Shown here one piece after another: positions 4,505 to 53,525 of a DNA stretch of 64,000 nt. The stretch is from NCBI GenBank assembly GCA_026929865.2, contig CM049410.1:17994501-18058500 (forward strand), written 5' to 3'. The stretch comes from Hyperoplus lanceolatus. Taxonomy: Eukaryota; Chordata; Actinopteri; Uranoscopiformes; Ammodytidae. Position 1 is the first letter of the stretch, and each line of letters opens with the position of its first letter. Both the position numbers and the translations under genes were made by a program. The notes under the pieces were generated by a model, which was not told the DNA's origin, did no database searches, and saw only the letters and a list, made by a program, of their open reading frames with translations.

Positions 4505-4509
4505 TAATA

Positions 4510-5701: not shown

Positions 5702-6063
5702 TAATAAAAGCCCGCCACCTCCCAGTCCCGCCCTTTGTTCAAATTATATGGAAAATTAATGACAACAAGGACGCCGGTATTAAATGAACAAAGAGATAAG
5801 AACACCTTAATTCAAATCAGTCACTTCACTTGATATATTCAAGCTTGTTTTGTATTATGTTATTGGGCTGGTTGACACACCAACACATTTTTGTTCTAAA
5901 ATGTTGTCAACATTAATTGAATTAATGTATTGAGTAACTAAGCTTAGAGGTTACTGTGGGAAAAATATGTTCTGAGAAGACATCAAGTGTCATAGATTTA
6001 ATATAATAATGGTGAATTGAAATTGGATAATTGGATAACCCAAACAATGTTGAATACATATAG

Positions 6064-17713: not shown

Positions 17714-18154
17714 AAATGTTGACCTTCTGAAAAGTATGTTTATTCTAGATTAATTTCACTTCATGTGTAATGAATCTAGAATATATTTAAATTTCACTTT
17801 TTGAATTAAATTACAGAAAAAAGGAAATTTTCATTGATATTTGAATTTTGTTTTAGATAAACCTCAATATAGTTATAAGTACAAAGTGAATTTCTTTGAC
17901 CCACATCATCTGCCATCGATAATCAATTGTAGGGGAAGGTGGGGTGATTTGTGCAACTTTTTACTCAAAGTGATTTTAAAGTGAGGCCTTGACAGTTATG
18001 TCTCCAACTCAAATATGTACATATATTTCAGGATGTTGTGCATCCCTGGCAATAAAAACTTTGGATCTGGAATAAACTGTTTAAGAAATATAGCTTTCGG
18101 AAAAAAAGTTGTCTTGTCGCACAAATCACCCCACGTAGTGGGGTGATTTGTGCG

Positions 18155-18337
18155 TCATTGTGTCACAATGACAAAGTCACCATCATCATCTTTCTGGCCA
18201 TCTGAACTCTCATCAGTGGTGTCGTTAAGTGGAATTGAGATGTCACTCTCTCCTGAGCTACTGTAGACTATCACTTTCTTTTGGTGACCAGCGTATACAG
18301 CCATGCCACTGGCACAACTCTCAGAAATGTACTTTGC
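18155..18337 (-). pseudogene. Acidic C-terminal relic, possibly of a pogo-like transposase
   Basis: The minus-strand frame ends in a Ser/Asp/Glu-rich tail (SSSGESDISIPL, then TTDESSDGQKDDDGDF) before a stop close to an internal copy of the terminal motif. Such acidic tails are common at the C-terminus of pogo/Tigger-type transposases, and the TA-flanked element around it agrees. The catalytic DDE domain and the CENP-B-like DNA-binding domain are gone. Upstream of residue 15 of the frame that starts at 18379, the apparent protein is only the antisense of the inserted LINE tail and is not real. Family assignment is an inference from context. Confidence 0.4.
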
Positions 18338-18650
18338 ACTAGTTGCTCCGTGCTTGTGGAACCAACTGCCACCTGACAAATGTGATTCCCCTACATTTCT
18401 GCCTTTAAATCAAGGCTCAAAACCCATATGTACACCCTGGTGTTTCCTCCCCATTAACCTCTGCACTACTTACTTACCTCTGCACTACTATCTGTGTTTA
18501 TGTGGATGTATGGGCTTTACGTCTTTTATTTTGGTTATTGTTATTTTACCTTCATTGTTTACCTACTGAATGCACTATGTACAGCACTTTGGACAGTGCA
18601 AACTGTCATAAATGTGCTTTTATAAATACATTTTACTTACTTACTTACTT
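18338..18650 (+). mobile_element. L2-like LINE 3' end with (TTAC)n tail
   Basis: The plus strand reads LWNQLPP, then after a shift FKSRLKTHMYT, the hallmark C-terminus of L2/CR1-type reverse transcriptase ORFs (LWNxLP followed by FKxxLKTHL). It is followed by a short 3' UTR with the AAACTGTCATAAATGTGC stretch and a (TTAC)n microsatellite at 18633-18648. The piece is severely 5'-truncated. It lies inside the pogo-like composite and is shared by both copies, so it was inserted before the composite multiplied. A second copy of this tail is at about 52117-52430. Confidence 0.75.
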
Positions 18651-19489
18651 ATAACTCACCCAGGCCCTTGCGCACAAATCACCCCATCCCCAGAATTTTG
18701 GATAATAGGCATGATGCAGCAATTTAGGGTTGACATTGTGCTAACTATATAGACTCAAAGTGTAGCATACCAAAGCACTAAAACATGTGTCAAATGTTTT
18801 CAAACGTGTCTATAATTGTTCAGACACAATAATCAAAAAACCTTGATCATGGAAATTTTACTTTGAAAGGCAAAACACAGTTTTTTGAGCTTAAATGTGC
18901 TTATATCTTATTCCTTGTGTCTCCCTTCTTTACAGGATGAGTCAAATGGATGGCTCTTCTTAAATATGTGGTCACATTTCCAATTTCTTCCACGGTTTTC
19001 TAGAAACAAGGGGTTTTGCAACTTCCAAAATGCACAAATCACCCCACCTTCCCCTATATGTATAGCCTGCAATATGAACAGACTATCACATACATTATCA
19101 TAATTTATATAATTTCATCTTAATCTAATTAAATTAATTATAAATGGTTCAGGTTAAATAAATAAAAAAATAAGAACTATTTAACTAAATGACAATGCAG
19201 TCTTTTATGTGGTAGGCCTTCTTTACATGCTAATGAAAATGAAGCAGTACACAGAAGATCATGGAATAATCATGGCTAACGCAAGCCAGGATAACCGAAA
19301 TATCCTAGGTTAATCCCGTATCTCAGTTTTATGCAACAGGCCCCAGGACGACTGCGACAAAACTATATTGGTGATAATATACAGTAGCTGCTAATTAGTT
19401 CAGGGCTAATTAATCCCTCTTCCCAAACACAAAACGGCGTTCATGAATAGACTGAAAAATAAACAAAACTGCAATTATCCGGCTAAGAG

Positions 19490-19690
19490 AGATGATTTTA
19501 TTTTATTTTTTTAAAGATTTGTTTTTGTCATTTTATGCTTTATTGATAGTGCAGAGAGACAGAGGTGAAATGGGGCAGAGAGGGGAGTGACATACAGAGA
19601 ACGACCGCGGGCGGGAATCGAACCCGGGTCTGCTGCTGGGCCCGGCCCGAGGGGGGGGGACACACCCTACCAACTAAGCTAAAGGCGCCC
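19490..19690 (-). mobile_element. tRNA-derived SINE
   Basis: Read on the minus strand, the element starts GGGCGCCTTTAGCTTAGTTGG, with a tRNA-like A box (TAGCTTAGTTGG, about 19670-19682) and a B box (GGTTCGATTCC, 19614-19624) at suitable spacing for RNA polymerase III. An unrelated body and an A-rich tail towards 19490-19520 follow. A G-run of the minus-strand complement (19651-19659) disrupts the tRNA fold between the boxes, so it is not a working tRNA gene. AAGAGATTTTA beside the 5' end and AAGAGAGATGATTTTA beside the tail could be an imperfect target duplication. Confidence 0.8.
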
Positions 19691-19919
19691 AAGAGATTTT
19701 AGTGAAATGAAACAGAGTTAATCGTATAAAGCGGAAAAGACAGACAGCAGTTTGTTCAAAATATTAATAAAAATAAACAACTTAAAGCTTAGATATAAAT
19801 ATTACAATATGTGTTGTACGCTCATTTACATGCAGAACTCTGAACTCGTGTATCTCATATCTTTTACAACTGTGACAAATCTTTGCCATCATGTGAAATG
19901 TGTATTTATGGTAACTGTA

Positions 19920-19920
<1 letters not shown>

Positions 19921-19968
<48 letters not shown>

Positions 19969-19978
19969 CAGAGAGAGA
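19921..19978. repeat. GA microsatellite
   Basis: About 50 bases of (GA)n, interrupted by GACA units near 19961-19972. It makes spurious Arg-Glu and Ser-Leu frames on the two strands. Confidence 0.95.
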
Positions 19979-20474
19979 AAGACACACACAAAGCCTGCAG
20001 GATCATCTCTGAGCTGATAACACAGGAAATCCTTGTAAGACTCTTTTAAGCTTACATGCACTGTAAATAATTGCTGTAAATTTACAGCAGGATTTCAACA
20101 GCATTTACCTGTTATTTATAAAAACAGCATTTAACTGTTAAAATAAAAGGCAGTCTGTTAAATTACAGTCCTTTGCTGTTATTTTACGGACCGGTAATGT
20201 TTTTCAAAAATACTGAACTTTCCTGTTAATTTACCATCAAACTTGGAAGGGACAACTTGACATGAGCTGCCTGCACATGTGAAGCTTATACAGTTTTCTT
20301 CATTAATCCTCATCCATCCACATCTTAACTAATAAGTGCTGTTTACTGTATATCCTCTGGTTAAGTTTACTTAAAGTTGAGTTATATCTACTTGGAAATG
20401 GAAATTGCAGTTAACGTAATTAAACCAAGTTAGTCTTACTTAACTGAAGAGTTGTGTTTACTCAGTAGAATTAA

Positions 20475-21370
20475 AGCCACTACGAGTAACATGGCACGTT
20501 GGCGTCCCCTTTGGACAAAAGCGGTAGTATTTTTACGACGCCCGCTGTCGCAAAGCTGTTTTCTAGCGCGTGCCAGGCGCGTGAGTGTGACCTGAGAAGG
20601 GAGCAATATAGCGCATGTCCGTGTGTTGAAAGTGTGAGGACTCTTTTCGGCTCCGTGAGAGTGGTTTTGACACTGCATGAACTAATGCCAGTCACTGCCA
20701 CACGCACCTGATTGCAATGAGTTGATGCAGGTTCACCTAACTACTCTCTCTCTCTCACGGAGCTGAAAAATTACGTGTCCTCACAGAAAGCAAATGAACG
20801 AGAGACGGCAGTTAGTATGGATCACGATGAAGTAATGTGTTTATGTTGTTGTAAATAATTACTATTTCAGATAATGGTTATCTGATGATGGTGAAGCAAA
20901 GCAAACTTTGTGTTAGTACCAACCGCTCATTAATTTAGGAGTAAACACTGCAGTCTAGTTTCGCTCTCGTGAAATTGTATACCCTCGTCCCCCCGTAGCC
21001 TATATCACTCTCCCTTTTAGCTTTTCTTCATTGCATTTTCTTTTTTTTCTTTGATGGTTCAGCCCCATTATCAGCCTATCAGTCATTATGACGACAAATA
21101 ACTGTATCAAACAAGGCTCCCGCTCCCCTTCCCTCACCTGGAGGGATAGGCTTCTCAATTCACGTTGCTGCGCCACACTGAAATCTGCGACCAATACGGA
21201 TATGTGACCATAGAGCTTGCACGAGCGAACCGAAAATCGGTAGTAATAAAAACTATTTAAAAACGTCTTTCTTTGCACTGATGGTCTCGTTTGCTTTTAA
21301 AGGTAATTTATGATTAACAGAGGAAACATGAGGCTGTTTAAAAGATATTTAAATGTTACTCGTAGCCGCT
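20475..21370. mobile_element. TTAA-flanked MITE, copy 2
   Basis: Same element as 14151-15060 with the same inverted termini and TTAA on both sides (20471-20474 and 21371-21374). It is 896 bp long against 910 bp in copy 1. Differences include loss of a stretch after TTGTATAC near 20980, a missing piece near 21240 and several small indels, so the copies separated some time ago. It is nested inside the CACTA-like element. Confidence 0.8.
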
Positions 21371-21447
21371 TTAAGGAAACGGATTGCCTTAGATAAATCA
21401 AGTAAGCACAACAAAGTGTATTGTAGAGACGCCCCCTTTCCCACAAT

Positions 21448-21850
21448 GACTTGCACTGGACTAAACGTTTGTTATGTTGCTATGTGCACCCTCAGTAAAG
21501 GGGATGTTTCATTCCATTACCTCACTATGCATTTTGTTTAAATAAAATATTTCTGTGTGAACTAACTTTTATTTTTGGTTATAACAAACGGTTTGTGGAA
21601 ATCTTAAACAAGATCCCTAGTTCAACTCAGGAGACAATTTATAATTGAAATGAATCATTCCATTGAACTTAATATATTGTAAAAAGTGTCTTGAAGTAAC
21701 AAACAGAAGCTGCTCTCTGTGTTTAGCATTTGAACAAATAGGGGACATAGTAAATTTACATATGGAATGAAACAGATCTGCCCAATGAAATATAACATCC
21801 CCTTCGCTCACGGTGCAAACAACATAACAAACATTTAGTCCAGGTTCATC
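21448..21850. repeat. Inverted repeat pair within CACTA-like element
   Basis: The stretch 21453-21513 (containing GGACTAAACGTTTGTTATGT) is matched in inverse by 21787-21844 (containing ACATAACAAACATTTAGTCC), leaving a loop of about 270 bases. It may be the ends of a further small nested element, or a structure belonging to the host element. Confidence 0.6.
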
Positions 21851-21856
21851 CCTTTT

Positions 21857-22095
21857 TTCATTAACAGTATAATCCTGTCAATTTTAGTGACAGTCAAATA
21901 ATGTTAATTTAACAGTAAGAAAATGGAAACCCTGCTGCCAGTTGATTACTGTTTTTACTGAAAAAAACAGGTTCATACAGTTTTCTTCATTAACAGCATA
22001 ATCCTGTCAATTTTATTGACAGTCATATAATGTTAATTTAACAGTAAGAAAATGGCAACCCTGCTGCCAATTGATTAATGTTTTTTTACAGGGAA
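21857..22095. repeat. Tandem duplication of ~128 bp near element end
   Basis: Two head-to-tail copies both contain TTCATTAACAG, then ATAATCCTGTCAATTTTA, then AACAGTAAGAAAATGG. They differ at a few positions. Confidence 0.8.
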
Positions 22096-22110
22096 ATTTC
22101 TTACAGTGTG

Positions 22111-23295
22111 GTGCTATCAGAGCAACAGTCATCAGCAAAGTTCATGGTCATGGTACATTAAAATGTTAACTTCTTCCTCTAAATATGGTAAGAATTTTCT
22201 CTTTGTTCTGTGTGAGCGGTGCGAAGAGGAGCTATTTTTTTTTCAAAAGTATTGCGTAAAGAACGGGAAGTGTTGATTATCAATGCAAAGAATGAGGAAT
22301 GAAAAGAATTGTAGTGAAAAAAGTAAAAGCCATTTACGTCACGCTTGGATCATACATGCAGGAAAGAAAAGAATATACTGTATTCAAGTAAAAGAGAATA
22401 TCCATAGTGGAATCTTCTTTGAAGCCAATGCTTTTAACCCAAACATAATTCTCTTTCATTTCCAGCTTGGTAGCTTTAAAGCTGCAATAATCAATATATT
22501 TTTTTTTTTAAAGTGTCGCCCGGAGACAAATTATTTTCAGCTTTTTACCTCTTTCAGCCAATTCATTTAGGCTAAAAGACCGGTTTGGATAAGCTTTCCC
22601 ACAGTGGCATGCAACTACTTTCAGTGTAAAATCCCCTTTAGACGACATGCTTGGCACCAAACGGCAAACAAACAAAGTTTGAGACTATGGCTGGTGAACA
22701 AAGAGGAGCAGCTAAAGAACCAGATATTTCCCTCAGGAGTCAGTGTGGGGGGGGGGGGGTGGATAACAAAAATAAAAGCAAAAGAAAAGAGTGAGTATTG
22801 GATTTACATTGTCAGGTTGCCAGCAACACAACTCTAAATGAATAATACTATTCTCCATTGCCCCTGGATGTGTGTAAACAGCAGCAACCCTGCTTCTTAT
22901 TACAATATATTAGTAAATTGCTGGCCCAGAAATTGTATACGTAACTGGCTGTATTATGTTTGTATGCAGCGCTTTTGCTGTTTTTGAGGAAAGGGGGTTA
23001 ATTTTTGAGGTTAACTACTACATTTAACTAGTGCCCCAAAATCAAGGGGACTTGCTCGAAGTCTGGGTCCTGTCTGTAGTTACATTTAGGGTAAACATAT
23101 TTCAGTGAATGTAAAAAAAAATAATTGAAGTCACTGAGGACTTTTCCTTTATCAAAGTATAACCAAGTGCCAAGAGAGGGCATAATAATTATAATAATCT
23201 AGAGGTCACTTTGAGCAAAAAAGTATATTTTTAACATTTTACTGATACTTTCAGCAAATTGCAGATCCATTAAATTACATAGTATCATTATGTTA
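22111..23295. other. Unassigned AT-rich sequence
   Basis: No gene recognised. A G-run lies at 22747-22760 and a T-run at 22499-22509. Frames up to 95 codons (22283-22570) have no family resemblance. Confidence 0.4.
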
Positions 23296-23665
23296 TCTTC
23301 AGTGCCCCCGACTCCTGGAACAACTTACAGCAACAAATTAAACTAAATACCTTCATATCCTTTAATCAATTTAAACAAACTATCTTAAATCTGCCATACT
23401 CTACCTGTAACTGTTTTAATTAGGCTATATTGTACTTACACCCATTTCATTTTAATTGCTGCCACTCTTCACCACTATGTAAATGTTTCAATTGTTTTTT
23501 TTCTCTCTTCACCTGTTGTTGTGTATTTGATGTATTTGCATTGAATATTGTGTATGTATTGTTGTTTTTCCTTGGAATTTATTTACTCGACATCATTGTA
23601 AATGAGGGTCACCCCTCAATTGGTCTCTCGAGGATAAATAAAAGTTAAATGAAATGAAAAATGAA
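23296..23665 (+). mobile_element. LINE 3' end fragment (same family as 44395-45550)
   Basis: From CTTCAGTGCCCCCGACTCCT onwards this matches 45189-45550 almost base for base, including the SAPDSWNNLQQ coding tail, the stop, and the 3' UTR ending in AAATGAAATGAAAAATGAAA. It is a 370-bp, strongly 5'-truncated insertion. ATGTTA occurs just before and just after it and may be the target duplication. Confidence 0.85.
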
Positions 23666-25148
23666 ATGTTAATAGGAAACACACTCAGGTATGCATATCG
23701 TTTTCCTTGAAATCATATTTAAGGTAAGCTGGGATAATTAAATAATAAATGTTTCGCCTGAGGAACTGCATAAACAAACACATTGGGAATGGAGGGGACA
23801 ACATTAGAATGTGAAAACTGACAAATGAATCCCCTAGCACCCTCCCCAGAAAAAACTGATTTCAATCAAGATGAGTATGCTAAACACTGAGCGTTTAGTC
23901 ACTAAAAACATGTTTACAGAACCTAGCCTGTGTATAACCAATGGATTTTGTTTTGTCACTAAACATAGTTTTGTCAAGCGGCCCAACCAGCTATGCAGGT
24001 TTAGAGTGTTTTATCCCAACTGTGCACTGAAAAGAAAATCTGGTCTTAATACACAGCTTAGCATCTGTAAACTAGTAAGTAAACAAAGGGTATGTAAACA
24101 AAAAGGACCCACCTTGGCTAGTAACATGCAGGTTTACAGAGTGTAGGCTGTATATAACCATTGGATTTTTTTTTTAGTGACTAAACAGTTTCGTCAAGCG
24201 GCCCTGAATCAAGCTATGCAGTTTCACCCCGGCATCTTTTGTTTGTCTTCATCGTGCATATTTTATATCTGATGAGTCATGCCTTTAAGTGTCGGTATAT
24301 GATCACCTGGATAATTCAAGAGCCTGCTTCTGCCCCATACGCACACTTTCAGCAACTGAGAGAAAAAACATCTAATTTATGTAACAATCTGAATGGAAAT
24401 GTGAACAATGAAGTGGCGGTTAAGCTTTTAAGCCTTTTTCGTCATTTGTTAACAATTGCCTCTATGCTGAGAACATGATCAAACTATTTATTCATCTCAC
24501 GTTGGTATTATATACTATTTATGGTTGCCAGTGCCACATGCATTCTTTCTCACTCGCTATTTTAGTTGTTTCATCCATCTTTTTCTTTTGTTTGAGTCAG
24601 GTGGTCAAAGGCTACTTCTTGCTTCTGGGATGTCTATTTTAAAGAGGAAACTATAGCATGGTTATTCATTGTAGCAATCAATACTTAATTTTTTGTCCCT
24701 CTGTCAGCGAGAAAGGTTTGCTAATAAAGGGCTGGAGCATATCCCAGCATGCATTGGGTGAGAGAATGGGCACACTGGACACAAATAGAGCCTAACATAA
24801 TGCACGATTTCAGTAAATCTCATCTAAATGTTAATCTTATTCAATATATAAAATGCAAAACAATCCGCCATGTTCATTGGCTGTTACCAGAATACTAGTG
24901 AAGTAATAAACCATGACTAATTGAACTGTGTTTATTTTAATTAGTTGCAAACACTTTGGTAGAGTCCTCCTTTGTATGACCAGCCAAGCGTTAGACTAAT
25001 TAAGTTATTTATTTATTTATTTTAGATAATGTGTAAAGAAAGACCTGAGATATATTTCAGAGAAATTAATGTTTTTTTGTGGAAAATTTAATGATTACCC
25101 TTGAGCAAACTGGGCTGTTGCTGCAGCAAAATGATAACAGAAAAGAAA
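23666..25148. other. Unassigned sequence with a direct repeat
   Basis: A block around 23910-24003 (with TATAACCAATGGATTTTG and GTCAAGCGGCCC) is repeated at about 24126-24226, giving a direct repeat with a period of about 216 bp. Otherwise no gene or bounded element was recognised. Confidence 0.45.
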
Positions 25149-25730
25149 ATATCGAGGGCTTGGAGCAAAAGGGCGTAAGTGACAAATTTTGCGAAAAATT
25201 TTATATATCATTTTAAAGGTCTTGATAAGTTCTAACAAATGGTAAAATAATAACGTCACTATACATTTTACTTTTTGAAATAAAGGCTGAAAACATAAAG
25301 GCGTAAGTGAAAACCTTTGGTTGAGTTTGGAGCATAAAAGGCGTAAGTGCACCAGGCTTGGCGCACAAAAGGCGTAAGCGCATCATAAATAGGCTAAAAG
25401 AGCTGACAATATGGAGGGATTGCAGAAAAGACCAACATTTATACTACAGAAAAAGTGTTTTGAATATGTTTGGAGAACCTGATATACCCACATATGATGG
25501 AGAAAAAATGGACACTAAAATAAACATACTTTTTTTGAATTTTTTTTAATAATAATTTTTTTTTTTTTCACAAATATGAATTCATTGAAGCCTAATCTTT
25601 ATTTAAGTAAAGATTGCTTCAATATGCTGTTTTTTATTAAATATTCACAATAAATAAAAAGTTTGTTTTTGCTCTCCTGTAAAATTCTGAAAACGTCACT
25701 TACGCCCCTTTTGCGCCAAGCCCTTGATAT
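25149..25730. mobile_element. TIR element with repeated CGTAAGTG-type terminal motif
   Basis: The left end (ATATCGAGGGCTTGGAGCAA) and the right end read inwards (ATATCAAGGGCTTGGCGCAA) are inverted repeats of about 35 bp. The terminal core AAAGGCGTAAGTG recurs internally: 25168-25181, 25297-25309, 25336-25349 and 25367-25380 on the plus strand and 25697-25712 on the minus strand. The internal copies at 25325-25380 also repeat part of the GGCTTGG(C/A)GC terminus. A 63-codon frame at 25358-25549 is unrecognised. Superfamily is unknown and the target duplication unclear. Confidence 0.65.
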
Positions 25731-26310
25731 ATGACATCATAAGAATTTATTTAAAATGCAAACTATATCACAGCAGTAGGATGAAAGTACACATAATTGT
25801 AAAAGTGTGAACAATAATCACAGCCTTTTTGAATGAATGTAGAGATTTTACTTTGATACATGAGTAAATAATAAATAAAAACAAGATACATCGTGCAATA
25901 CACTGCAATGACAGGATAAGGAATTCCATAAAAAGAGAATATGAACAAATCACAAAAATTATGATGAAATTATGTAAAATAAACTAGTTTATTATCATAG
26001 AAAACATAGTAAAGATTATCGCTGCATTTTAGCATTGTCCAAACTCTTAAAGGGCCGGTATGCTCTTATACATAGCATGAACAGTTTCCGAAGACCCCAT
26101 CAACCTACACCTTTTTAGACATAAGAATTGGTCTCGGAACACCCAGTTTTTTCTTAGCGTACTGTAACCCAAGCCTATGGACTTGTTCTTAGATGCCAAC
26201 TTTAAAAGTGCTAGGAGATATAAGCAAAACAGTTTCATGATATTTGGCCACAACAAATCACAGGCATTTACTTCTCTCATTTTGTGCCTTTACACTCACT
26301 CACTCACTCA

Positions 26311-26350
<40 letters not shown>

Positions 26351-26690
26351 AGCAATTTCCTTCAGAACTACATGCATCAAATTCACACAATTAGGTAGCA
26401 GACTACTGTATGTGGTTGGCCAACTGCACAGACCAGTGAGCAGCGATTATACCACAGAAACTATCAAACTGTATTGAGTTTGGGAGTTGTGGACCGTTGT
26501 GTTGGCTTCCCGGTGTGAGCCATGCGTACCGACAGCCTGCACGGAGATTTTCCACCACACAGCATGACGGAACTGGAAAAGGTCAGCAACTATGATTAGT
26601 TTCTCACACTTCTTCGCCAAAGCACCTGCCACTGATGAGGCCGGACGTGTCAGTCTCCACACACAGAGGCATGCTGTTTCTTTTCTATTG
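25731..26690. other. Unassigned sequence with CA microsatellite
   Basis: (CACT)n followed by (CA)n runs from about 26292 to 26346. No gene recognised. Confidence 0.5.
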
Positions 26691-26694
26691 TTAA

Positions 26695-26950
26695 AGCTAT
26701 ATTGTGTAACTTCTGTTGCCCCCATGATGATGATATATTCTGCTGTACATCCAGGTTTCTTCTCGGCAGTAGAATTAACAACTGAAACATTTCATGGGCG
26801 CTTCTAAGGATTTTTCTGAGCTCCTGCACAAGTGTCGGGTGGTGAGTGTTGGGGAGCTGATAGGCTTAAACAATTTTGTATCAACTCATTTGGCAACGGC
26901 TTGAACGTAATCGACACTCATTTATATGAAAAAAGTTACGCACTGTAGCT
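26695..26950. mobile_element. Small TTAA-flanked MITE
   Basis: Imperfect 18-bp inverted ends (AGCTATATTGTGTAACTT at the left, AGCTACAGTGCGTAACTT inwards from the right) are bordered by TTAA at 26691-26694 and 26951-26954. The element is 256 bp with no coding. Ends share the AGC start and GTAACTT/GTAACAT end with the larger TTAA MITEs, so they may use related transposases. Confidence 0.7.
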
Positions 26951-26954
26951 TTAA

Positions 26955-28334: not shown

Positions 28335-28346
28335 CAAATCAAAATT

Positions 28347-31300
28347 CATCATCATCATCATCATCATCATCTTCAACCGCTTATCAGAAATCGGGTCGCG
28401 GGGGCAGCAGCTTGAGCAGGGAACCCCAAACTTCTCTTTCCCGGGCCACTTCAACCAGCTCTGACTGGGGGATCCCGAGGCGTTCCCAGGCCAGCGTGGA
28501 AATATAATCTCTCCACCTAGTCCTGGGTCTTCCCCGAGGCCTCCTCCCAGCTGGACGCTCCTGGAACACCTCCCTAGGGAGGCGCCCTGGGGGCATCCTT
28601 ACCAGATGCCCGAACCACCTCAACTGGCTCCTTTCAACGCAAAGGAGTAGCGGCTCTGCCCCGAGTTCCTCACGAATGACTGAGCTTCTCACCCTATCTC
28701 TAAGGGAGACGCCAGCCACCCTCCTGAGAAAGCCTATTTCGGCCGCTTGTACCCGCGACCTCGTTCTTTCGGTCATTACCCAGCCTTCATGACCATAGGT
28801 GAGGGTAGGAACAAAGATCGCCCGGTAGATCGAAAGCTTTGCCTTACGACTCAGCTCTCTTTTCGTCACAACAGTGCGGTAAAGCGAGTGCAAAACCGCC
28901 CCTGCTGCTCCGATTCTACGGCCAATCTCACACTCCATTGTTCCCTCACTCGCAAACAAGACCCCGAGGTACTTGAACTCCTTCACTTGGGGTAAGGACT
29001 CATTCCCTACCTGTAGTAGACAATCCATCGGTTTCCTGCTGAGCACCATGGCCTCCGATTTAGAGGTGCTGATCCTCATCCCAACCGCTTCACACTCGGC
29101 TGCAAACCGATCCAATGAGAGCTGAAGGTCACAGGCCGATGATGCCATCAGAACCACATCATCCGCAAACAGCAGAGATGAGATCTTCAGACCACCAAAC
29201 TGCAACCCCTCCCCACCACGACTACGCCTTGACATCCTGTCCATAAATATCACAAACAGGATTGGTGATAAAGCGCAGCCCTGGCGGAGGCCAACCCCCA
29301 CCGGAAACGAGTCTGACTTACTACCGAGAACCCGTACACAGCTCTCGCTTTGAGCGTACAGAGATTGGATGGCCCTGAGAAGAGACACCCTCACCCCATA
29401 CTCCCGCAGCACCCCCCACAGTATCTCCCGGGGAACCCGGTCATAAGCCTTCTCCAGATCCACAAAACACATGTAGACTGGATGAGCAAACTCCCAAGCT
29501 CCCTCTAGGATCCTTGCGAGCGTGAAGAGCTGGTCCGTTGTTCCGCGGCCAGGACGGAATCCGCATTGTTCCTCTTCAATCTGAGGTTCGACTATCGGCC
29601 GAACCCTCCTTTCCAGCACCTTGGAGTAGACTTTGCCGGGAAGGCTGAGAAGTGTGATACCCCGGTAGTTGGCACACACTCTCTGGTCCCCCTTTTTAAA
29701 AATAGGAACCACCACCCCGGTCTGCCACTCCTTCGGCACTGTACCCGACTTCCACGCAATGTTGAAGAGGCGTGTCATCCAAGACAGCCCCTCCACACCC
29801 ATTGCTTTCAGCATTTCTGGACGGATCTCATCAACCCCCGGGGCTTTGCCACTGTGGAGTTGTTTGACTACCTCAGTGACTTCCACCAGGGAAATTGACG
29901 ATGATCCCCCATCAGCCTCCAGCTCTGCCTCCAACATAGAGGGTGTGTTAGTCGGATTCAGGAGTTCCTCAAAGTGCTCTTTCCACCGACCGACTACCTC
30001 CTCAGTTGAGGTCAACAGCGTCCCATCCTTACTGTACACAGCTTGGATAGTTCCCCGCTTCCCCCTCCTGAGGTGCCGGACGGTCTTCCAGAAACACTTT
30101 GGTGCCGACCGAAAGTCCTTCTCCATGGTTTCTCCGAACTTCTCCCACACCCGCTGCTTTGCCTCTGACACGGCAGAAGCTGCAGCCCTTCGGGCCTGTC
30201 GGTGCCTTGCAACTGCCTCAGGAGTCCCCCGAGATAACATATCCCGGAAGCACTCCTTCTTCAGTCGGACGGCTTCCCTGACCACCGAGGTCCACCACGG
30301 CGTTCGAGGGTTACCGCCCCTTGAGGCACCTAAGACCTTGAGACCACAGCTGCCTGCCGCGGCTTCAGCAATGGAAGTTTTGAACATCGACCACTCGGGT
30401 TCAATGCCCCCAACCTCCACAGGGATGCTAGAAAAGCTCTGCAGGAGGTGCAAATTAAAGATCTCTTGAACAGGGGCCTCCGCTAGACGTTCCCAGTTCA
30501 CCCGCACTACCCGTTTGGGCTTACCAGGTCTGTCCAGAGTCTTCCCCCACCCTTTGACCCAACTCACAACCAGATGGTGATCAGTTGACAGCTCCGCCCC
30601 TCTCTTCACCCGAGTGTCCGAAACATGCGGCCTCAGATCAGATGATACGATCACAAAATCGATCATCGACCTTCGGCCTAGGGCGCTCTGGTACCATGTA
30701 CACTTATGAGCATCCTTATGTTCGAACATGGTGTTTGTTATAGACAAACCATGACCAGCACAGAAGTCTAACAACAAACGACCACTCGGGTTCAGATCGG
30801 GGAGGCCGTTCCTCCCAATCACGCCTTTCCAGGTGTCTCCATCATTGCCCACGTGCGCGTTAAAGTCTCCCAGCAGAACTATGGAGTCCCCTACCGGAGC
30901 CCCATGCAGGACTCCGTTCAGGGTCTCCAAGAAGGCCGAATACTCCGAACTGCTGTTTGGTGCATACGCACAAACAACAGTCAGAGTCTTCCCCCCCACA
31001 ACCCGGAGGAGTAGGGAGGCGACCCTCTCGTCCACCGGGGTAAACTCCAACGTAGTAGCGCCCAGCCGGGGGCTCGTGAGTATCCCCACACCGGCCCGGC
31101 GCCTCACACCTTGGGCAACTCCAGAGAAGAATAGAGTCCAACCCCTGTCCAGAAGTACGGTTCCAGAGCCAAGACTGTGCGTGGAGGTAAGCCCCACCAG
31201 ATCTAATTGGTAGCGCTCCACCTCCCGCACCAGTTCCGGCTCCTTCCCCCACAGCGAGGTGACGTTCCACGTCCCCAAAACCAGCCTCTGCCGCCCGGGT

Positions 31301-31721
31301 CTGGTCCATCGTGGTCCCCGCCCTTCACTGCCACCCTTTAGGCAGCGCACCCGACCCCAGCGGTTCCTCTGACGAGTGGTGGGCCCATCAGTTGTAGAGG
31401 GAGTTTGTGCCACGTAGCTTCTTCGGGCTGTGCCCGGCCGGGCCCCGTGGCAGACCCGGCCACCAGACGCTCGCAGGCGGGCCCCCTTTCTGGGCCTGGC
31501 TCCAGACGGGGGCCCCGGGCTTCCTCCGGGCAGGGTCACACTTCCTCTATCTCGTTTTTTCATGAGGTCTTTTTGAACCATTCTTAGTCGGGCCCCTCAC
31601 CCGAGACCACTTTGCCTTGGGAGACCCTACCAGGAGCACTAGGCTCCGGACAACACAGCTCTCAGGTTCACAGGGGCACACAAACCTCTCCACCACGGTA
31701 AGGTGATGGTTCCCGGAGAGG
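28347..31721 (-). mobile_element. Full-length RTE-clade LINE with 12-bp target duplication
   Basis: A perfect 12-bp direct repeat, CAAATCAAAATT, borders the element at 28335-28346 and 31722-31733. Read on the minus strand it has a short 5' UTR of about 140 bp, one ORF filling almost everything, and a very short 3' UTR ending GATAAGCGGTTGAAG plus an (ATG)n microsatellite (28347-28371). This compact plan with a microsatellite tail is typical of RTE LINEs such as fish Rex3-like elements. Completeness of the target duplication and of the ORF points to a recent insertion. Confidence 0.93.
28384..31581 (-). CDS. RTE LINE ORF2-like protein: AP endonuclease plus reverse transcriptase (1065 aa)
   Basis: This protein would nick target DNA and copy the element's RNA at the nick. 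The N-terminal 100 residues are Arg/Gly-rich and basic, fitting RNA or DNA binding. An apurinic-type endonuclease follows: GTWN (103-106), GDFNAH (238-243), RRSMIDFV (303-310) and the catalytic TDHH (333-336). The usual QE-type glutamate motif reads LTSTHS (131-136) instead, which could mean an altered or lost active-site acid. The reverse transcriptase spans about 575-880, with [39 protein letters not shown] and the catalytic FADD at 805-808. A C-terminal tail with GHLVRMP and RPRTRWRDY completes it. No stop or frameshift interrupts it, unlike the copy at 6098-7984. The start could be the first Met or a later one, since the N-terminus is poorly constrained. Confidence 0.9.
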
Positions 31722-31733
31722 CAAATCAAAATT

Positions 31734-41409: not shown

Positions 41410-41417
41410 CTCACCAT

Positions 41418-41798
41418 TAGGGCTGGGTATCAAAGTTTAATACTTTTTTGGCACCGACCAAAAGGCCTCAATATGGAAATGTTGAGTATCGAAAAATGTC
41501 TTGTCTTTCAACTTCAGTGAGCCAATAAGCATGCAGCATGCTTGACGTGCCAAAATCGAAAAGTGGTGTTAATTGGCTGTGTGTAAGGCATCCAAGGCAC
41601 ACTTTGTTTCTTTTTGCTCGTATATATTGTTGTAGCTGCAGTGGTTCAGGAGATGTGTGCTAATCTAAAGGCAGTTAGGTCGGTTTAGGTCGGCTTGTTT
41701 TAAAGGATTTCATAAAATTGGTATCAAAAAAACTATCATGCAGGCACCTTCAAACAAATTCAAGGTATCGAGTTCTGTATCAATATACCCAGCAGCTA
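41418..41798. mobile_element. hAT MITE, 381 bp, 8-bp duplication CTCACCAT
   Basis: The exact 8-bp duplication CTCACCAT is at 41410-41417 and 41799-41806. The left end TAGGGCTGGGTATCAAAG and the right end read inwards, TAGCTGCTGGGTATATTG, are imperfect inverted repeats of a hAT type common in fish. There is no coding capacity. It is the only clear transposon between 31.7 and 44.4 kb. Confidence 0.85.
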
Positions 41799-41806
41799 CT
41801 CACCAT

Positions 41807-44394: not shown

Positions 44395-45550
44395 TGTTAT
44401 TATTCTTTTCACAATTTATATAAATAACATTGTTTCATCGCTAAAAAACTGTCATGCCCATCTATACGCTGACGACACAGTACTGTATTGCATTTCCGAT
44501 TCGGTGCACCAATCTATTCAGAACCTACAAAGCTCTTTTAACACCCTGCAGGACTGTCTAGTGGACCTCAGGCTGGTTCTAAATACAGACAAAACCAAAT
44601 ATATGTGTTTCTCCAGAGCACGAACTACAACTCTTAATGATTTTAATATTTTTACAAAGAATGGATTTTTAATTGAAAGAGTCACAGAGTACAAATATCT
44701 CGGCATCTGGTTAGATGATAAACTCACTTTTAATTTCCATATAAAAAATCTTGTTTGTCGACTACGACAAAAAATTGGCTATTTTTATAGGAACAAAACC
44801 ACCTTCCCTTTATTTAGTAGGAAAAGGATTATTGAGGCAGTTTTTATGTCTGTCCTTGATTACGGTGATGTAGTTTACCGACATGCATCTCATTCATGTC
44901 TTAAACTCCTAGACTCTGTTTTTCACTCTGCTTTAAGGTTCATCACAGGAGATGCTTATGACACACACCATTGTCTTTTATATGAAAAGGTTGGGTGGTA
45001 CTCCCTTAAATAGAGACGTGATGCACATTGGCATATTTTTATTTACAAAACCTTGACCGGGAAGCTTCCTCGTTATTTAACAGAAATGTTGCAAATTTCA
45101 GATGGGCTTTATCAGACCCGCTCCACTGACATGCTCATGCTTTATGTCCCACAAGCCCGGTCTGAGCTGGGAAAGACAGCTTTTAGCTTCAGTGCCCCCG
45201 ACTCCTGGAACAACTTACAGCAACACATTAAACTAAATACCTTCATATCCTTTAATCAATTTAAACAAACTATCTTGAATCTGCCAAACTCTACCTGTAA
45301 CTGTTTTAATTAGGCTATATTGTACTTTCACCCATTTCATTTTAATTGCTGCCACTCTTCACCAATATGTAAATGTTTCAATTGTTTTTTTTTTCTCTCT
45401 TCACCTGCTGTTGTGTATTTGATGTATTTGCATTGAATATTGTGTATGTATTGTTGTTTTTCCTTGGAATTTATTTGAACTCGACACCATTGTAAATGAG
45501 GGTCACCCCTCAATTGGTCTCTCGAGGATAAATAAAAGTTAAATGAAAAA
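44395..45550 (+). mobile_element. Jockey/CR1-like LINE, 5'-truncated
   Basis: The insertion carries the second half of a reverse transcriptase ORF, a stop and a roughly 230-bp 3' UTR ending in a short ATGAAA-rich tail. The 3' end is the same as at 23296-23665, so this is a multi-copy family. Homology to reverse transcriptase begins around 44400, upstream of which nothing of the ORF is seen. No clean target duplication was identified. Confidence 0.85.
44401..45313 (+). pseudogene. LINE reverse transcriptase C-terminal half with one in-frame stop
   Basis: Reading begins upstream of the first ATG with ILFTIYINNI, then LYADDTVLY with the catalytic YADD box (44463-44488), LNTDKTKYMCFSR, YLGIWLDDKL, and a C-terminal region that ends SAPDSWNNLQQ. 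These are the palm and thumb blocks of jockey/CR1/I-type LINE reverse transcriptases. A TAG at 45011-45013 interrupts an otherwise continuous frame (the frame is unchanged on both sides and open from 45014 to 45313). The fingers and the endonuclease are absent through 5' truncation. Exact clade cannot be set from this part. Confidence 0.85.
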
Positions 45551-48500
45551 AATGAAATTATAGTAAGTTGACCGAGAAGAAGAAAAAAGGTGGGGATAAC
45601 GCTCAGAACTAGAACTCAGAACTAGTTAGTTCCCAATAAAGTTAAATATGAGTCAAATGCTATACATTTCCAGAAAGCCTCTTCAAAGGATAATTGACTT
45701 TTCAGAAAGGTGTGAGGTTGGAGTGTCTGCAGCCTCTCAACCATGTGACAAGCATTTCTGAAGAAGCATACAGGCCTGCTTCATGTTCTAGCTTTGATAT
45801 TTTGAATTCTTACTAAAACTGCTTTTGCATTTTCTCCCTTCTTGACCATTCACCTCTCATAGCACTGTATTCGACTCAGTTGGAAAAACCGTGGTAATTA
45901 ATTATTGTTTAAAGAGATATACCATGCTGAGGTGAATTTAGTGTAATTCAGCTTTCTGTGTGAGATAGCCATCCAGTCCATCTTGCAGTAAGAGCTCAGT
46001 AAGAGTAGTGGGGGATGGACCTTTCAATTTACCTACGAGAAAGAAAAAACTCAGCTCTATGGTGCGGTGATGAGAAATCGAGAGCTGCGTAACCACTCAA
46101 ATCAAGGTTGATTCAATTAAACAGAGTTAGAAAAGTCGTGATGAATACAAAATAAAGGAAATATCATCAGTTATGATTAGTGGATGGAGAAACTGGAGCA
46201 GAAGGCAAATAGATGCAAATTGAGGAGAAGAGTTAAATGTCACATATTATGCTAAATGCACTTTTTAAATGTGTTCTAACATATCCATGGGTCCACGGTG
46301 TGCCTAGAGACTGCCAAAATATTAAAAAAAAAACAATCTCTCCTTTTCTCACTCTCCCCCTTTCTGAAACCCCCATCCCTCCCCCCCAATATAATCCCCC
46401 GACCATGAAACTACATGGTGCATCTTTACAATGTCTAACAATACATGTTGAAAAATGCTAAATGTGCCAAGTATTTATAAAAACTATTCTCCAAGTGAAA
46501 AAAAGAGAATCTGCTTGTTAACATGACAATACGTATTCCTGCCAGCGTGCATGCTTGTGTAAAGTCAGCAGTACACCATGCACAGGGGTGGCTCAAAACA
46601 GCCAGAGGCTCCGTGTGACGCTGAACAAAAGTTAATTTTCAGGGTGACTACACTCTACAATGCCTCTGCCTTAAATAAAAGATATGAAGGATATTGGACC
46701 TTGAAGCCGATCTCAAAACAACATCTCGACTGTCTTGCCTCTGGCTCATGGAAACAGTGTGATAATGTGGAAGGGAAGCTTAATCAAGTGCTAATTCAAA
46801 GAAATCTGTTCCGACAAGGAAATTATCTGGTACGTAAACTGTGTAGAAGGTTATGTCAAGTGACTGTCACCGTGAGAACTATCACCTGAATCTGCAGCTC
46901 CCCTCGGCTTTACACAGGGTTTATATTTAAAGTAGAGTTTCAGCTCATTGTTAAGCTGTCAGGCTGCTACTCTATAGCTTTGGTTCACTGTCACCTGAAA
47001 AACTCACTGCACACTACCTGCTGAGCTAACAGGGACAGTTATGCCACGTTTCCACTGAGTAGTACAGTTCGGTTTGTGATTCCACTGCCCAACAGTACCC
47101 TTAAATTAAGCTTTACTTGTAGGGTAGGCTATGTGTCGGACGGACGTAAATGACATAACAGTGGAACAAAGTTTAGCTCACCAATACATTAAATGAAGAG
47201 GAAGAATTTGAAACAGGAAAAAGATAGAAAGCGCCGCAAACATTTTCTCAAAAACACAAGATTCTTCACTCTTGCCCAGGATATTATACACAGCGATTTT
47301 TCTCCCGCATAGAAACAACGGTTCTTTCAAAAAATCAACAGACTGCAGTTTGAAGCTCCACCTGTCTTGAGGGACTCTTTGGGACAGCTTGGTTCCCCAA
47401 TGAAAGGGTACTAAAAACATCTAGTTGGCGAAAAATACATGCCTGCTGTAAAGCCATATGTCAATGTTGTATTTTTTTTAATTGTCCAGTTATTCAGGTA
47501 ATAACGATTTAAAGATTTGTGTAGTCTCCACTAGAGAGTAAGGCTGAACGATTTCAGTAACATTTTTAATAGCTTATTTTTAAAACATTGTTTGGGATTT
47601 GATATGATGTGTAGCAAGTTAAACAGAAACTTATATTGGAGACATTTAGAAGAGGTTTACAAGCTTGAAGGTAATCATGCTTAGAAGGCGTGTGCCAAAC
47701 TATTGTTGAATGGAAGATAATTAGCAACCTAGATGGCGGGGGAAAGGAGGAAAAGAGATTTGATACGTTTTTTTAATTCATTTATCAAGAAGCTTAATAG
47801 AACTAAAGTTATAATCGACCATTTGGATAATAGATTTCAGTTTTATTGCATTTATTCATCTCATCAACAAATGAGGAAACAATGAGAGACTTTGTAGCAG
47901 TGCAGAAAGATTATAGTACAAAGATATCACATATTGTGGTCAAATATTATAATCTAATTGTCACTCAAGTAGAATTACATAAGAGACGATACACATACAT
48001 TTCTGAGTTGTTACCATGCTTGGATGACTGCTAAATGAACATAATAACATAATATGCATAATCTACAAATACCAGCAGCAACACACAAACTTGGATGCTG
48101 TACTAGCATACACCATCCTATAATCTCCTGCAAAAAGCAACAAAAGACTAAATGTTTTTTCTCTGTTTGCTTGCCAGGAAAGGGATTTCAGCAGCACTGA
48201 AGAGATGAGAATGAGCAAAATAGAGGAACGGAGCTGTTTGGCTAAAAGCCTTGAGGATTCTTTTGATTCTCAAGGACATGTTCTATGTCCTGTTCTCCAC
48301 TCAGTCTCCTAACCCTTTATCTGAGGCCCGCCACCACACCCAACCCAATTGTAACATTCTCAGATGCAGAATGCTTTTTCTCCACAATCCCAACTCGGCT
48401 GCTTATAAAATAGGATGTCATGTAAGCCTTTGGAGCTGCAGGGATTGGAGATCTCTGGTGGGTAAAAGCCGGGAACATTCAGAAAAACTCTCTACTTTGG

Positions 48501-49098
48501 ACTTACTTTGGAACTATTTTCCTGAGCTCCACAGTTTTAAGTCGCTCTGCACCGAAAGTTGGCTTTTTAATATGGTTAACCCTTAGGTGCTCTTGGGGAA
48601 GTGTTTGTCCTTCGCACTTTTTTAACGCTCTTTTTTGTATATAACTTTGGCTGTGCTTATGTGCAATAGAAAAAAAAATCAACCTAAATGGTTGGTAGGG
48701 ATGCTAGTGTGTGGTGCATATGTATGTATTGAGAAAATATAGTGTGCGTGTTTGTGTACACACAGCCAAACTTTACAAACTCAAACTTCTATGGAAAAAA
48801 TGGCCCAATTTGAAAGCATTAAATCCTGTCAAAACTTAGTTTTTTCAAACCACAGCCATGATGACAAACACATGTGAATTTGATGATATCAGGCAATAAT
48901 CCAAAACTTAAGACAACAAATTGCTTTTTTAGCCCTATCTAGCCCAATCATTTATTTCCTCCTGTTTTTTCTGAGGATCAAATATGCTCCCTAAAACCAT
49001 TTTTGTACTTTTCTGTAATTTTTTAGAGTTGCAGACCTAAACATAAGAAATACGAGAAATTTATAGAAAGTGTGGATCTATATGGATACCTTAGGGTT
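45551..49098. other. Unassigned sequence with possible MITE ends
   Basis: No exon recognised. ATGTCACATATTATGCTAAA at about 46237 and CACGTTTCCACTGAGTAGTA at about 47046 look like ends of fish hAT-type MITEs, but I could not match opposite ends or target duplications. The frames at 46578-46889 and 48251-48586 (103 and 111 codons) have no family resemblance. Confidence 0.4.
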
Positions 49099-49102
49099 GT
49101 TT

Positions 49103-49247
<145 letters not shown>

Positions 49248-49656
49248 TTTGTGCGCATGCATATGTGTGCAGCTATAAGGTGCAATTTGTGGGTTTTCAG
49301 GTGGCTGCAGGTTCACAGTACTTTGTTGAAATTATCAAAGAAACTGGAATTAAAAGGGTCAAAAGCAACTGACAATGAATATATATTTGATATGTATGTA
49401 AAGAGGTCAAGTGGGATAAAAGGTTTTCAAAAAAAAAGTAGAAAAAATATTACTGTATAATGTTTTTAGGGCAGTTTATAGGGAGGGGACGTTTTTGTCC
49501 TTAGGGAGCTGAGTGTGAGTACACAAATACTAAACATTAGGGGTGGGAATCTCTTGGCACCTCACGATTCGATTCGATTCCGATTCAGAGGTCAACGATT
49601 CGATTCAAAATCGATTTTCAATGCATCTCAATGCAAAACATTTTTTATGTACATAC

Positions 49657-51048
49657 TAGGGATGTAACAATATACCGCAAAACGGTCGTTCGCGATATGA
49701 AAAGGCCACGAATGTCAACCGTACGTTTTTTCTTGTTATACCGTGTCACGGTATTGAGGCGAGCGTGCATGGTAAATGCGCTCCGTCATTGTGGAGAGTC
49801 TGGTAAGCAACGTTGTCATAAACGTAGCACTCAATCTAACACTGTATGGGTCACACCAACATTGGAAACCAAACAATAACACATTGACACAACATCTTAT
49901 CACTGAAACATGACTTCTAACTTTAAACTGACGGTCACGTCTCACGTGGGCTGTTGTTTACACTACGCAGAGCAACGCGTGCAGCTTCACCACATTCAGT
50001 CACGCAGCAGCAAAGAAGAAGAGAGAGGAAGAGAAAAGGGAGAGATATAGAGAAAAAGATCGGCATAGTAGCTTACCAGACTGAAGAGAAAGTTGCTCGC
50101 GGGTGAGTTATATCATTATGAATCCAGGTGAATGTGAGGAAATGAGATACAAAAAAAAAAAAAAAAAACATCCACCGCGACCGCGCGTTAAATCCCAGGT
50201 AAAGTCGGCGAACTTCGGTGAAAGGCAGATGAAGGAAATAAGTCCAAAGATCCTTTATATGTTCATCACAACTTCACGTGAACTAGCATAGGAACTCAGC
50301 TATACGAGCTATACCGGTGTTGCGCCGAAAGCTGTGACCTGCCAGAATATCACACATTCTGGCAGGTCACAGCTTTCGGCGTAACACCGTCATGTTGCGC
50401 AATACTATGGAATCCCTACTAGGTCAAACTTAGGTGACACTACTGCCAAGCATAGGTGACGTTGCGAAAGTGTGAGGTAGGGAGGAGGGAGAGGAGTGCA
50501 CTGCAAAAACATTGATTTTGAGACTGCAGTTTTAATTAATAACAAATAAAAATCATAATTTAATATTTACTGAGTTCATTGTGCCTGTCATAATGTAGGC
50601 CTATTAAGGTAAAAGCATGGCTTGCAAAAATAGTGTTGAATGAAATAGAGTTGATAAGCAAATAAGACATGGGAAAATTATCACACTATTGTTAAATTAT
50701 TTTATTTTATGCATACTTTTACAGTTACAGACAAGTGCCTAAAGTTTAGATTTAAAATTCCTATTTAATTTTAAAATTATAGGTGTAATGCTTCTTTAAA
50801 AAAAATAGTAGAGAAGCAGTGTCTTTGTTTTGGTGATAAGTTATTTAAATCTCTCTGAAATCTCTTCATAATAAGATATAAAAATTAGAATTATTCGTTT
50901 GTGTTTTATTTAAATCAGCGGTACAACATTTAATTTGAGGGGGTAGAAATGAATTATGCGCTTAATATCGTATCGTGATATCGTGATATTAATCGCAATA
51001 TCGTATCGTATCGTATCGTACTCAAAATTTCATATCGTTACATCCCTA
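49657..51048. mobile_element. hAT element (inner, nested), 8-bp duplication GTACATAC
   Basis: GTACATAC stands exactly at 49649-49656 and 51049-51056. The ends are TAGGGATGTAACAATAT at the left and TAGGGATGTAACGATAT inwards from the right, with CGTAT/CGATA subterminal repeats at the right. The 1392-bp body has no recognisable transposase. It contains a remarkable 75-bp hairpin at 50315-50389. Confidence 0.88.
50315..50389. repeat. 34-bp-arm near-perfect hairpin
   Basis: Arms 50315-50348 and 50356-50389 are reverse complements with a single mismatch, which would be a G-U pair in RNA from the plus strand, around a 7-base loop (ATCACAC). The arms are not AT-rich or simple sequence (they contain CCGAAAGCTGTGACCTGCC). 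It may be a tiny inserted foldback or a hairpin-RNA source. Confidence 0.9.
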
Positions 51049-51933
51049 GTACATACCCATGTGTGAATTTCAAAAATATATTTATATGCACATCTGAGTT
51101 TGCTAATCACTGCCTTCTCTAATATTGTATTAAGAGAAAAGCTTTTCTTGTCACAAATATGACTTTCTATGACCAGTGCAATAATCAATGCAGCTTTCAA
51201 CACAATATGGAAGTATGTAAAGACTAAACCGATTCAGTTTTATTTTATTTCTAATCTCGTAAATCATGTTTCTATAGGATTTCTATTCTATTATCTATTA
51301 TTTTCTATGTCATTTCAACACATTGTACAAAAAGTATGGCTTGGAATTCAGCTCTCATACAAAAACGTAAACAGAGATAAAGCCGGTGCAGGTCATGGGT
51401 TTGCTGCTCTCAGCCCTTTTGAAGCAACTTTGGAAACAACTCGCACATGTGTGGTGTGCATGCACAATGGCGCAGGAAGTTTTAGTATTTACAAAAAAAA
51501 AATATATATATATATAAATTTTTTTTTTTTTAAATCGATTATTAACTTTTCTGAATCGATTCAGAATCGTCCGAGAGAGAATCGATATTAATCGGAAAAT
51601 CGATTTTTTTCCCACCCCTACTAAACATGTATCGAAATCTATTTCATTGCAAATCATTAACATATCCTAGAGTCTAATTATCCCACTCAAAAAAATCCTC
51701 TTTGCTACTAGGGGAAGGTGGGGTGATTTGTGCAACTTTTTACTCAAAGTGATTTTAAAGTGAGGCCTTGACAGTTATGTCTCCAACTCAAATATGTACA
51801 TATATTTCAGGATGTTGTGCATCCCTGGCAATAAAAACTTTGGATCTGGAATAAACTGTTTAAGAAATATAGCTTTCGGAAAAAAAGTTGTCTTGTCGCA
51901 CAAATCACCCCACGTAGTGGGGTGATTTGTGCG

Positions 51934-52116
51934 TCATTGTGTCACAATGACAAAGTCACCATCATCATCTTTCTGGCCATCTGAACTCTCATCAGTGGTG
52001 TCGTTAAGTGGAATTGAGATGTCACTCTCTCCTGAGCTACTGTAGACTATCACTTTCTTTTGGTGACCAGCGTATACAGCCATGCCACTGGCACAACTCT
52101 CAGAAATGTACTTTGC
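51934..52116 (-). pseudogene. Acidic C-terminal relic, possibly of a pogo-like transposase (copy 2)
   Basis: Same frame as at 18155-18337, with the identical Ser/Asp/Glu-rich tail and stop. It cannot encode an active transposase, so movement of this family would depend on an enzyme made elsewhere. Confidence 0.4.
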
Positions 52117-52430
52117 ACTAGTTGCTCCGTGCTTGTGGAACCAACTGCCACCTGACAAATGTGATTCCCCCTACATTTCTGCCTTTAAATCAAGGCTCAA
52201 AACCCATATGTACACCCTGGTGTTTCCTCCCCATTAACCTCTGCACTACTTACTTACCTCTGCACTACTATCTGTGTTTATGTGGATGTATGGGCTTTAC
52301 GTCTTTTATTTTGGTTATTGTTATTTTACCTTCATTGTTTACCTACTGAATGCACTATGTACAGCACTTTGGACAGTGCAAACTGTCATAAATGTGCTTT
52401 TATAAATACATTTTACTTACTTACTTACTT
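52117..52430 (+). mobile_element. L2-like LINE 3' end inside composite copy 2
   Basis: Same LWNQLPP and FKSRLKTH-type coding remnant and (TTAC)n tail as in the copy at 18338-18650, at the same position within the composite. Confidence 0.75.
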
Positions 52431-53525
52431 ATAACTCACCCAGGCCCTTGCGCACAAATCACCCCATCCCCAGAATTTTGGATAATAGGCATGATGCAGC
52501 AATTTAGGGTTGACATTGTGCTAATTATATAGACTCAAAGTGTAGCATACCAAAGCACTAAAACATGTGTCAAATGTTTTCAAACGTGTCTATAATTGTT
52601 CAGACACAATAATCAAAAAACCTTGATCATGGAAATTTTACTTTGAAAGGCAAAACACAGTTTTTTGAGCTTAAATGTGCTTATATCTTATTCCTTGTGT
52701 CTCCCTTCTTTACAGGATGAGTCAAATGGATGGCTCTTCTTAAATATGTGGTCACATTTCCAATTTCTTCCACGGTTTTCTAGAAACAAGGGGTTTTGCA
52801 ACTTCCAAAATGCACAAATCACCCCACCTTCCCCTATATGCGAAAATTTTAAATTATTGTGTTTTTTTTTATAAAAATGGCTCACGTCATCACATAAGCT
52901 TGCATGTAAAGGGTTAAAAGCAATTACAAATTAATGAATATTTGATATGTATGTGCAGAAGTGGGATAAAAGGTTTGTAAAAAAAAAGTAGAAAAAAATA
53001 TTACTGTATAATGTTTTTATGGCAGTTTATAGGGAGAGGACGTTTTTGTCTTCTAAGGTAATGAGTGTAAGGTCACACAATGGTTAAAAGGCCAGAGAGC
53101 CTCATGAGCACTTCAGGGGCCATATTCACAAAACATTTTAAGGCTAAGAGTAGGTCCTAACGTGCTGATTTAGGAGTAACTCTCAAAAATAAGGGGCGTT
53201 TTACTCCTAATTATAGGACTCCTTGTTACGATGAGGCGGGCAGGCAGGCAGGAAAACAGGACCCAAATGCAAGACGTAAAACTACAAGATATTTATTGTC
53301 CAACAACTTAACAAAAAAAGCCAACAGGCGAACAACCAGGAGAAACAGAAAAAACAAAGAACAGGCACGGGACAGACTCACCAACAGGAAACAATGCTTG
53401 CACAGGGAACAAAGAAACACTGGGGGTTATATACACACAAGACAGGGTAGACAACGAGAGACAGGTGAAACACATTAGGGGCGGGAACAGCAATCAAACA
53501 GGAGGGAAACTTGACAGGACATGGG

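Follow-up and report, generated by a model that had tools for sequence, protein, structure and literature searches.

Two near-identical copies of a non-autonomous, TA-inserting transposon with a LINE cargo and a variable internal palindrome in Hyperoplus lanceolatus

Miniature inverted-repeat elements are non-coding, occur in high copy number and are mobilised in trans. Members of the pogo superfamily encode a DNA-binding domain together with DDE_1, according to the accessible text of PMC7325037. Within that superfamily, Passer is described from fish and other animals in the available portion of PMC9976928; it duplicates a TA target, prefers the target palindrome AAGTACTT, mostly has inverted repeats of <30 bp and shows young activity in fish. 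Here, we report two copies of a non-autonomous element in a 64,000-nucleotide stretch of Hyperoplus lanceolatus DNA (the window) and compare them with copies and relatives elsewhere in the genome. A literature search, largely confined to papers outside subscription, returned no description of the family.

A preliminary description of the window held 17932-19054 and 51711-52834 to be almost identical, with TA borders and unrelated flanks, and this was borne out. The alignment of copy 1 (1123 bp) with copy 2 (1124 bp) contains one substitution (C at 18745 in copy 1, T in copy 2) and one indel, an additional C in copy 2. Both copies sit in TA, and four comparisons of the 5-kb flanks of copy 1 with those of copy 2 gave no match at E 1e-3. 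The terminal inverted repeats are perfect over 24 bp (26 nt including TA, 100% complementary), and the 20-nt terminus has four matches in the window at ≤3 mismatches, against a mean of 0 in 100 shuffles. All five motif instances in copy 1, placed at both ends and inside the element, read GGGGTGATTTGTGC. Six-frame translation of the element gave no long frame. The string at the terminus, GGGGAAGGTGGGG (17932-17944), occurs in 15 papers in the literature, of which 12 are, by title, on G-quadruplexes. The features of the window that concern the family are as follows.

17932-19054, + strand: copy 1, non-autonomous transposon, 1123 bp, with TA at 17930-17931 and 19055-19056
51711-52834, + strand: copy 2, non-autonomous transposon, 1124 bp, with TA at 51709-51710 and 52835-52836
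17932-17955, + strand: left terminal inverted repeat of copy 1, 24 bp, with motif GGGGTGATTTGTGC at 17941-17954
19031-19054, - strand: right terminal inverted repeat of copy 1, 24 bp, perfectly complementary to the left repeat
18115-18157, no strand: internal palindrome of copy 1, two inverted motif copies with a 3-nt spacer (GTA), variable in the family
51894-51936, no strand: internal palindrome of copy 2, equivalent to that of copy 1
18672-18685 (copy 1) and 52452-52465 (copy 2), - strand: fifth motif copy, mid-element
18155-18313 (copy 1) and 51934-52092 (copy 2), - strand: possible transposase open tail, ending ...VYAGHQKKVIVYSSSGESDISIPLNDTTDESSDGQKDDDGDFVIVTQ*, without a family match
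18318-18651 (copy 1) and about 52097-52431 (copy 2), + strand: putative L2-like LINE 3' end, carried as cargo, 5' boundary approximate
15974-16157, no strand: paralogous empty site for the L019 copy, in a similar repeat (89.7%) with a single TA and without the element

Empty sites, which the preliminary description had proposed looking for, were sought with 28 joined-flank queries against the fetched DNA and the window; the junction was crossed in 19 matching rows, from 8/28 queries. A base-by-base check of five rows, covering four insertions (L013, L016, L019, and L024), found a single TA and no element in 5/5. The empty site of L013 lies in L017, that of L016 in L013, that of L019 in the window (15974-16157), and L024 has one each in L018 and L021. 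This evidence comes from other family members, the two window copies themselves being outside that set. A pyrimidine stands just outside TA in 91/93 exact ends (both sides pooled, a raw count with no background frequency), so the target is mostly RTAY. With inverted repeats, TA duplication, and dispersed copies all present, the element is a non-autonomous cut-and-paste DNA transposon.

A genome-wide count of the terminus, also proposed at the outset, gave 1,883 exact matches of the 37-bp left end including TA (944 forward and 939 reverse; 806.7-Mb genome) and 0 for a reversed-sequence control; viral contigs held 0 exact ends of the element. Copies for comparison were taken from a DNA search (40 of 1,550 candidates scored, 20 of the remaining 39 best places fetched), from a tail-protein search that contributed 12 loci, and from C1, along which 19 further copies were picked, spread out, from among the exact left ends listed (a 111-base stretch was unused). 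With L036 (N run) and L047 and L057 (without a matching right end) excluded, 50 full-length copies were compared (2 window copies, 31 from the DNA and tail searches, and 17/19 from C1). Their pairwise substitution outside the palindrome averaged 0.56% (maximum, 2.2%), which understates divergence because the DNA- and tail-search copies were picked by similarity; the mean for the 17 C1 copies was 0.72%. This low divergence suggests a recent burst. Copy 1 has 0 substitutions (gaps uncounted) against L017, L020, L031, L032, L035, L039, L040, and L051, and copy 2 has 1 against copy 1 and against each of those eight. The two window copies are thus unremarkable members of the recent burst and not specially related. 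The original picture of a non-autonomous, TA-inserting, LINE-carrying and recently moved element stands, given its boundaries, the 1,883 ends, the low divergence, and the five empty sites.

The LINE end reported for both copies is present: on the + strand of copy 2 its sequence is LSEMYFALVAPCLWNQLPPDKCDSPYISAFKSRLKTHMYTLVFPPH*, similar to FSAAAPRLWNALPDQLRAPQTTALFKRNLKTHLFKRAFG* at L068 elsewhere in this genome, and we take it to be L2-like. The accompanying claim of a transposase tail relic fared less well. An open tail exists in both copies, but in its upper part (GSWFHKHGATSAKYISES) it is simply the carried LINE end read in antisense; a Pfam search of the tail holding the remaining about 52 residues matched 0 families at E up to 10, and nothing convincing resembled those residues at the DDE_1 loci L061-L075. 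Its reading as a pogo C-terminus is tentative. Among the matches listed for the LINE tail, none in the window lies beyond the two elements. Relatives with other ends also carry the tail (L016 in part, and L017), which places the landing of the LINE before the split of the subfamilies. Of the claim that a composite formed after the LINE landed and moved very recently, the movement holds; the composite itself is old, since relatives mostly 9-11% divergent carry the LINE, and its amplification alone is young. A separate LINE in the window (28384-31581, - strand) has an open 1065-aa frame with endonuclease and reverse transcriptase, and 6098-7929 (- strand) is a second, truncated LINE copy, by eye nearly identical to it. 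The window also contains adjacent 27-bp minisatellite arrays (55093-56629; three with 15.7, 19.0, and 17.3 copies, and a shorter array with 3.6), which sit within long open frames on both strands.

The relatives belong to older subfamilies with other ends, located as follows.

L016, 1831-2870: older subfamily
L017, about 4174-7113: older subfamily

Pieces of the L016 relative are 88.8-90.1% alike to the window family, and its ends read GGGGAGAGTGGCCTAAGTTGTGCC; with TA, this end has 291 exact matches in the genome (155 plus 136). The L017 relative is 90.1-91.3% alike save for one 93-bp piece at 98.9%, with what seems to be an intervening insert of about 1.8 kb. Between the window family and its sister, 7/24 end bases differ, with identical changes at both ends, against 10/158 in the next stretch (Fisher p 8e-5, taking the two ends as independent, perhaps wrongly), and the hairpin arms show 4 and 5 differences of 20. 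The ends and the arms of the hairpin have changed in concert from one subfamily to the other. Template switching can account for the agreement of the two arms, although by itself not for that of both ends. At L017 6061-7113, the mid-element motif is already GGGGTGATTTGTGCC, in contrast to the remaining motifs, which have the older form; this site may therefore be where the motif of the window family spread from. It is conceivable, if rather unlikely, that the element was re-addressed to a new transposase, by motif change at ends and arms with the hairpin homogenising the inner copies, and then multiplied hugely. Were the shared change a real re-addressing, transposase switching by parasitic elements would be directly testable.

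An active matching transposase had been expected elsewhere in the genome. A DDE_1 search scored all 27 candidates and gave 23 matches. Fifteen of these (L061-L075) were examined together with about 1.5-2.2 kb of sequence to either side, 8 being left unread, and among the 15/23 read no autonomous copy had the window-family ends as its own (for L070, a wider stretch, L076, was scanned for the LINE motif alone). The tail protein did not lead to a partner, as the 150 of 4,583 candidates scored were all 100% identical, in frames of 78-128 aa. The DDE_1 gene in L069 was rejected as a partner, a family copy merely adjoining it; this copy (236-1308) is without its last 14 bases and is separated from that gene by about 200 bp.

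One element, L066, has a DDE_1 domain and is bordered by TA; its two ends, which lie 2,679 bp from each other, both read TAGGGGAGAACGGGGTAA. It shares 26/37 end bases with the window family (maximum, 22 in 10,000 shuffles) and 29/37 with the sister subfamily of L016. Pfam identified DDE_1 alone, and no DNA-binding domain, in its first piece. Because its coding region is open in two different frames and its ends do not match those of the window family exactly, we treat L066 as a relative and not a demonstrated partner. By eye, L066 (347-3025) has a cysteine-rich, PHD-like C-terminus in the other frame, a piece for which Pfam gave no family. We apply the putative pogo label because of TA insertion and the end sequence in common with this one DDE_1 element. 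A pogo-type DNA-binding domain plus DDE_1 was not found in the window element itself, whose tail has no Pfam match. Encoding no such domains is expected of a non-autonomous derivative, and we therefore term it pogo-like and not a coding member.

The hairpin of two inverted motifs is inverted, deleted, or overwritten by fold-back in different copies; the folding energy of 18108-18165 as single-stranded DNA is -21.8 kcal/mol, compared with a mean of -5.5 for shuffled sequence. Among the 19 C1 copies, those with intact arms have the spacer GTA (9), TAC (3), or TAT (1), and those with altered arms have a one-base change (2) or arms lost or replaced (4). An exact left end pairs with 29/33 C1 tails from the tail-protein search listing, at a spacing of 228 in 18/29 and at ten other spacings in 11/29. 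The TAC spacer in intact context has 138 plus 150 matches genome-wide, and copy 1 (GTA) and L051 (TAC) show no substitution otherwise. Five of 17 variants (L030, L031, L032, L038, and L045) carry 16-25 nt inverting downstream sequence, L031 with an additional 18 nt of inverted upstream sequence; in five more, the native 9-nt inverse is lengthened to 11-13 nt, for which plain deletion also suffices. Among the 50 copies, indels of at least 3 bases affect the palindrome region in 15 and other parts of the element in 9. This sample is enriched for variants, in that the tail-search copies listed first over-represent changed palindromes; the corresponding counts for the 17 C1 copies are 3 and 5 (four of the latter share one 11-bp deletion). 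Relative to its length (about 50 of 1,130 bp), the palindrome region is nonetheless more variable than the remainder, and the palindrome appears to accumulate mutations faster than other parts of the element. On a tree of the element minus the palindrome, TAC (with TAT) takes 7 label changes and GTA 12, against 8.4 (69/500 as low) and 14.6 with shuffled labels; starred branches (1/42 inner branches) force 2 TAC and 3 GTA changes. The tree is poorly resolved, so inversions cannot be counted from it and it lends weak support to repeated spacer inversion. For yeast, the accessible part of PMC8604942 describes template switching that homogenises arms and inverts spacers.

Taken as a whole, these results are, we judge, quite probably explained by a young non-autonomous pogo-like family with a transposase acting in trans and a template-switching hairpin. 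The trans-supplied transposase would bind the GGGGTGATTTGTGC motifs at the ends, excise the element, and insert it at TA, mostly RTAY, with duplication of TA. The LINE tail would have landed in an ancestor and been carried along thereafter. The two inverted inner motifs would form a hairpin where DNA polymerase may repeatedly switch template, inverting the spacer, deleting the arms, or copying nearby sequence backwards. Near two thousand copies, the sampled ones a fraction of a percent apart, make a natural mutation record of one short palindrome, for which the remainder of the element serves as an internal clock.

The preliminary description allowed gene conversion as a part-source of the identity between the window copies, which lie 34 kb apart with two differences. 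That they are alike through conversion or local duplication is extremely improbable, as 8/49 other copies, all distant, have 0 substitutions against copy 1 and copy 2 has 1, so that exchange between the pair is unnecessary; in addition, the 5-kb flanks are unrelated, and in other members of the family insertion at empty sites is clean. Conversion was dropped on the ground of those eight closer copies. A very unlikely source of both the similarity and the palindrome variants is misassembly of a high-copy repeat: assemblers may flip or drop palindromes, and L036 contains a long N run, but the contigs are tens of megabases, the fold-back inserts vary copy by copy, and the four copies of haplotype GTTATCTCGCGGAC, with L016 (one gap off), are all GTA, the spacer partly tracking sub-lineages.

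The variants could also be scars of transposase cutting at internal sites, with end joining and fold-back fill-in, as the palindrome is built from two end-like motifs and is the centre of many deletions. We consider this possible but unlikely, given that the internal motifs are without the outer TAGGGGAAG of a real end and that spacer inversion between intact arms is the yeast template-switching product described in the available part of PMC8604942. Template switching at the hairpin remains the reading we prefer. As for class, TA duplication is common to the wider superfamily and not pogo-specific, and the element is without a catalytic domain, which would suit a TA-inserting Tc1/mariner-type element outside the pogo branch; such an assignment seems to us distinctly unlikely, the sole similar-ended coding element seen, in a domain search for DDE_1, having that domain. 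We retain the pogo-like label.

The window element resembles Passer in TA duplication, short inverted repeats, and young activity, and the G-TA-C of AAGTACTT is compatible with RTAY. By the available text of PMC9976928, Passer is autonomous, 1.6-4.0 kb long, with a transposase of 400-500 aa, whereas the window element encodes none; this comparison is by description and not by end sequence. L066 shares 26/37 terminal bases, including ACTTTTTACTC at equal offset, and TA borders, but has the motif GGGGTAAGTAGGC, a coding region in two frames, and no internal motif copies by the pattern used. The L016 sister carries the same LINE cargo (partly deleted) and a palindrome at the equivalent place; it differs in ends and hairpin motifs and has 185 bp missing from the window family. 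Like miniature inverted-repeat elements, the window family is non-coding, high-copy, and presumably moved in trans; unlike them, its element is longer than typical and contains a LINE cargo and an inverted internal motif pair.
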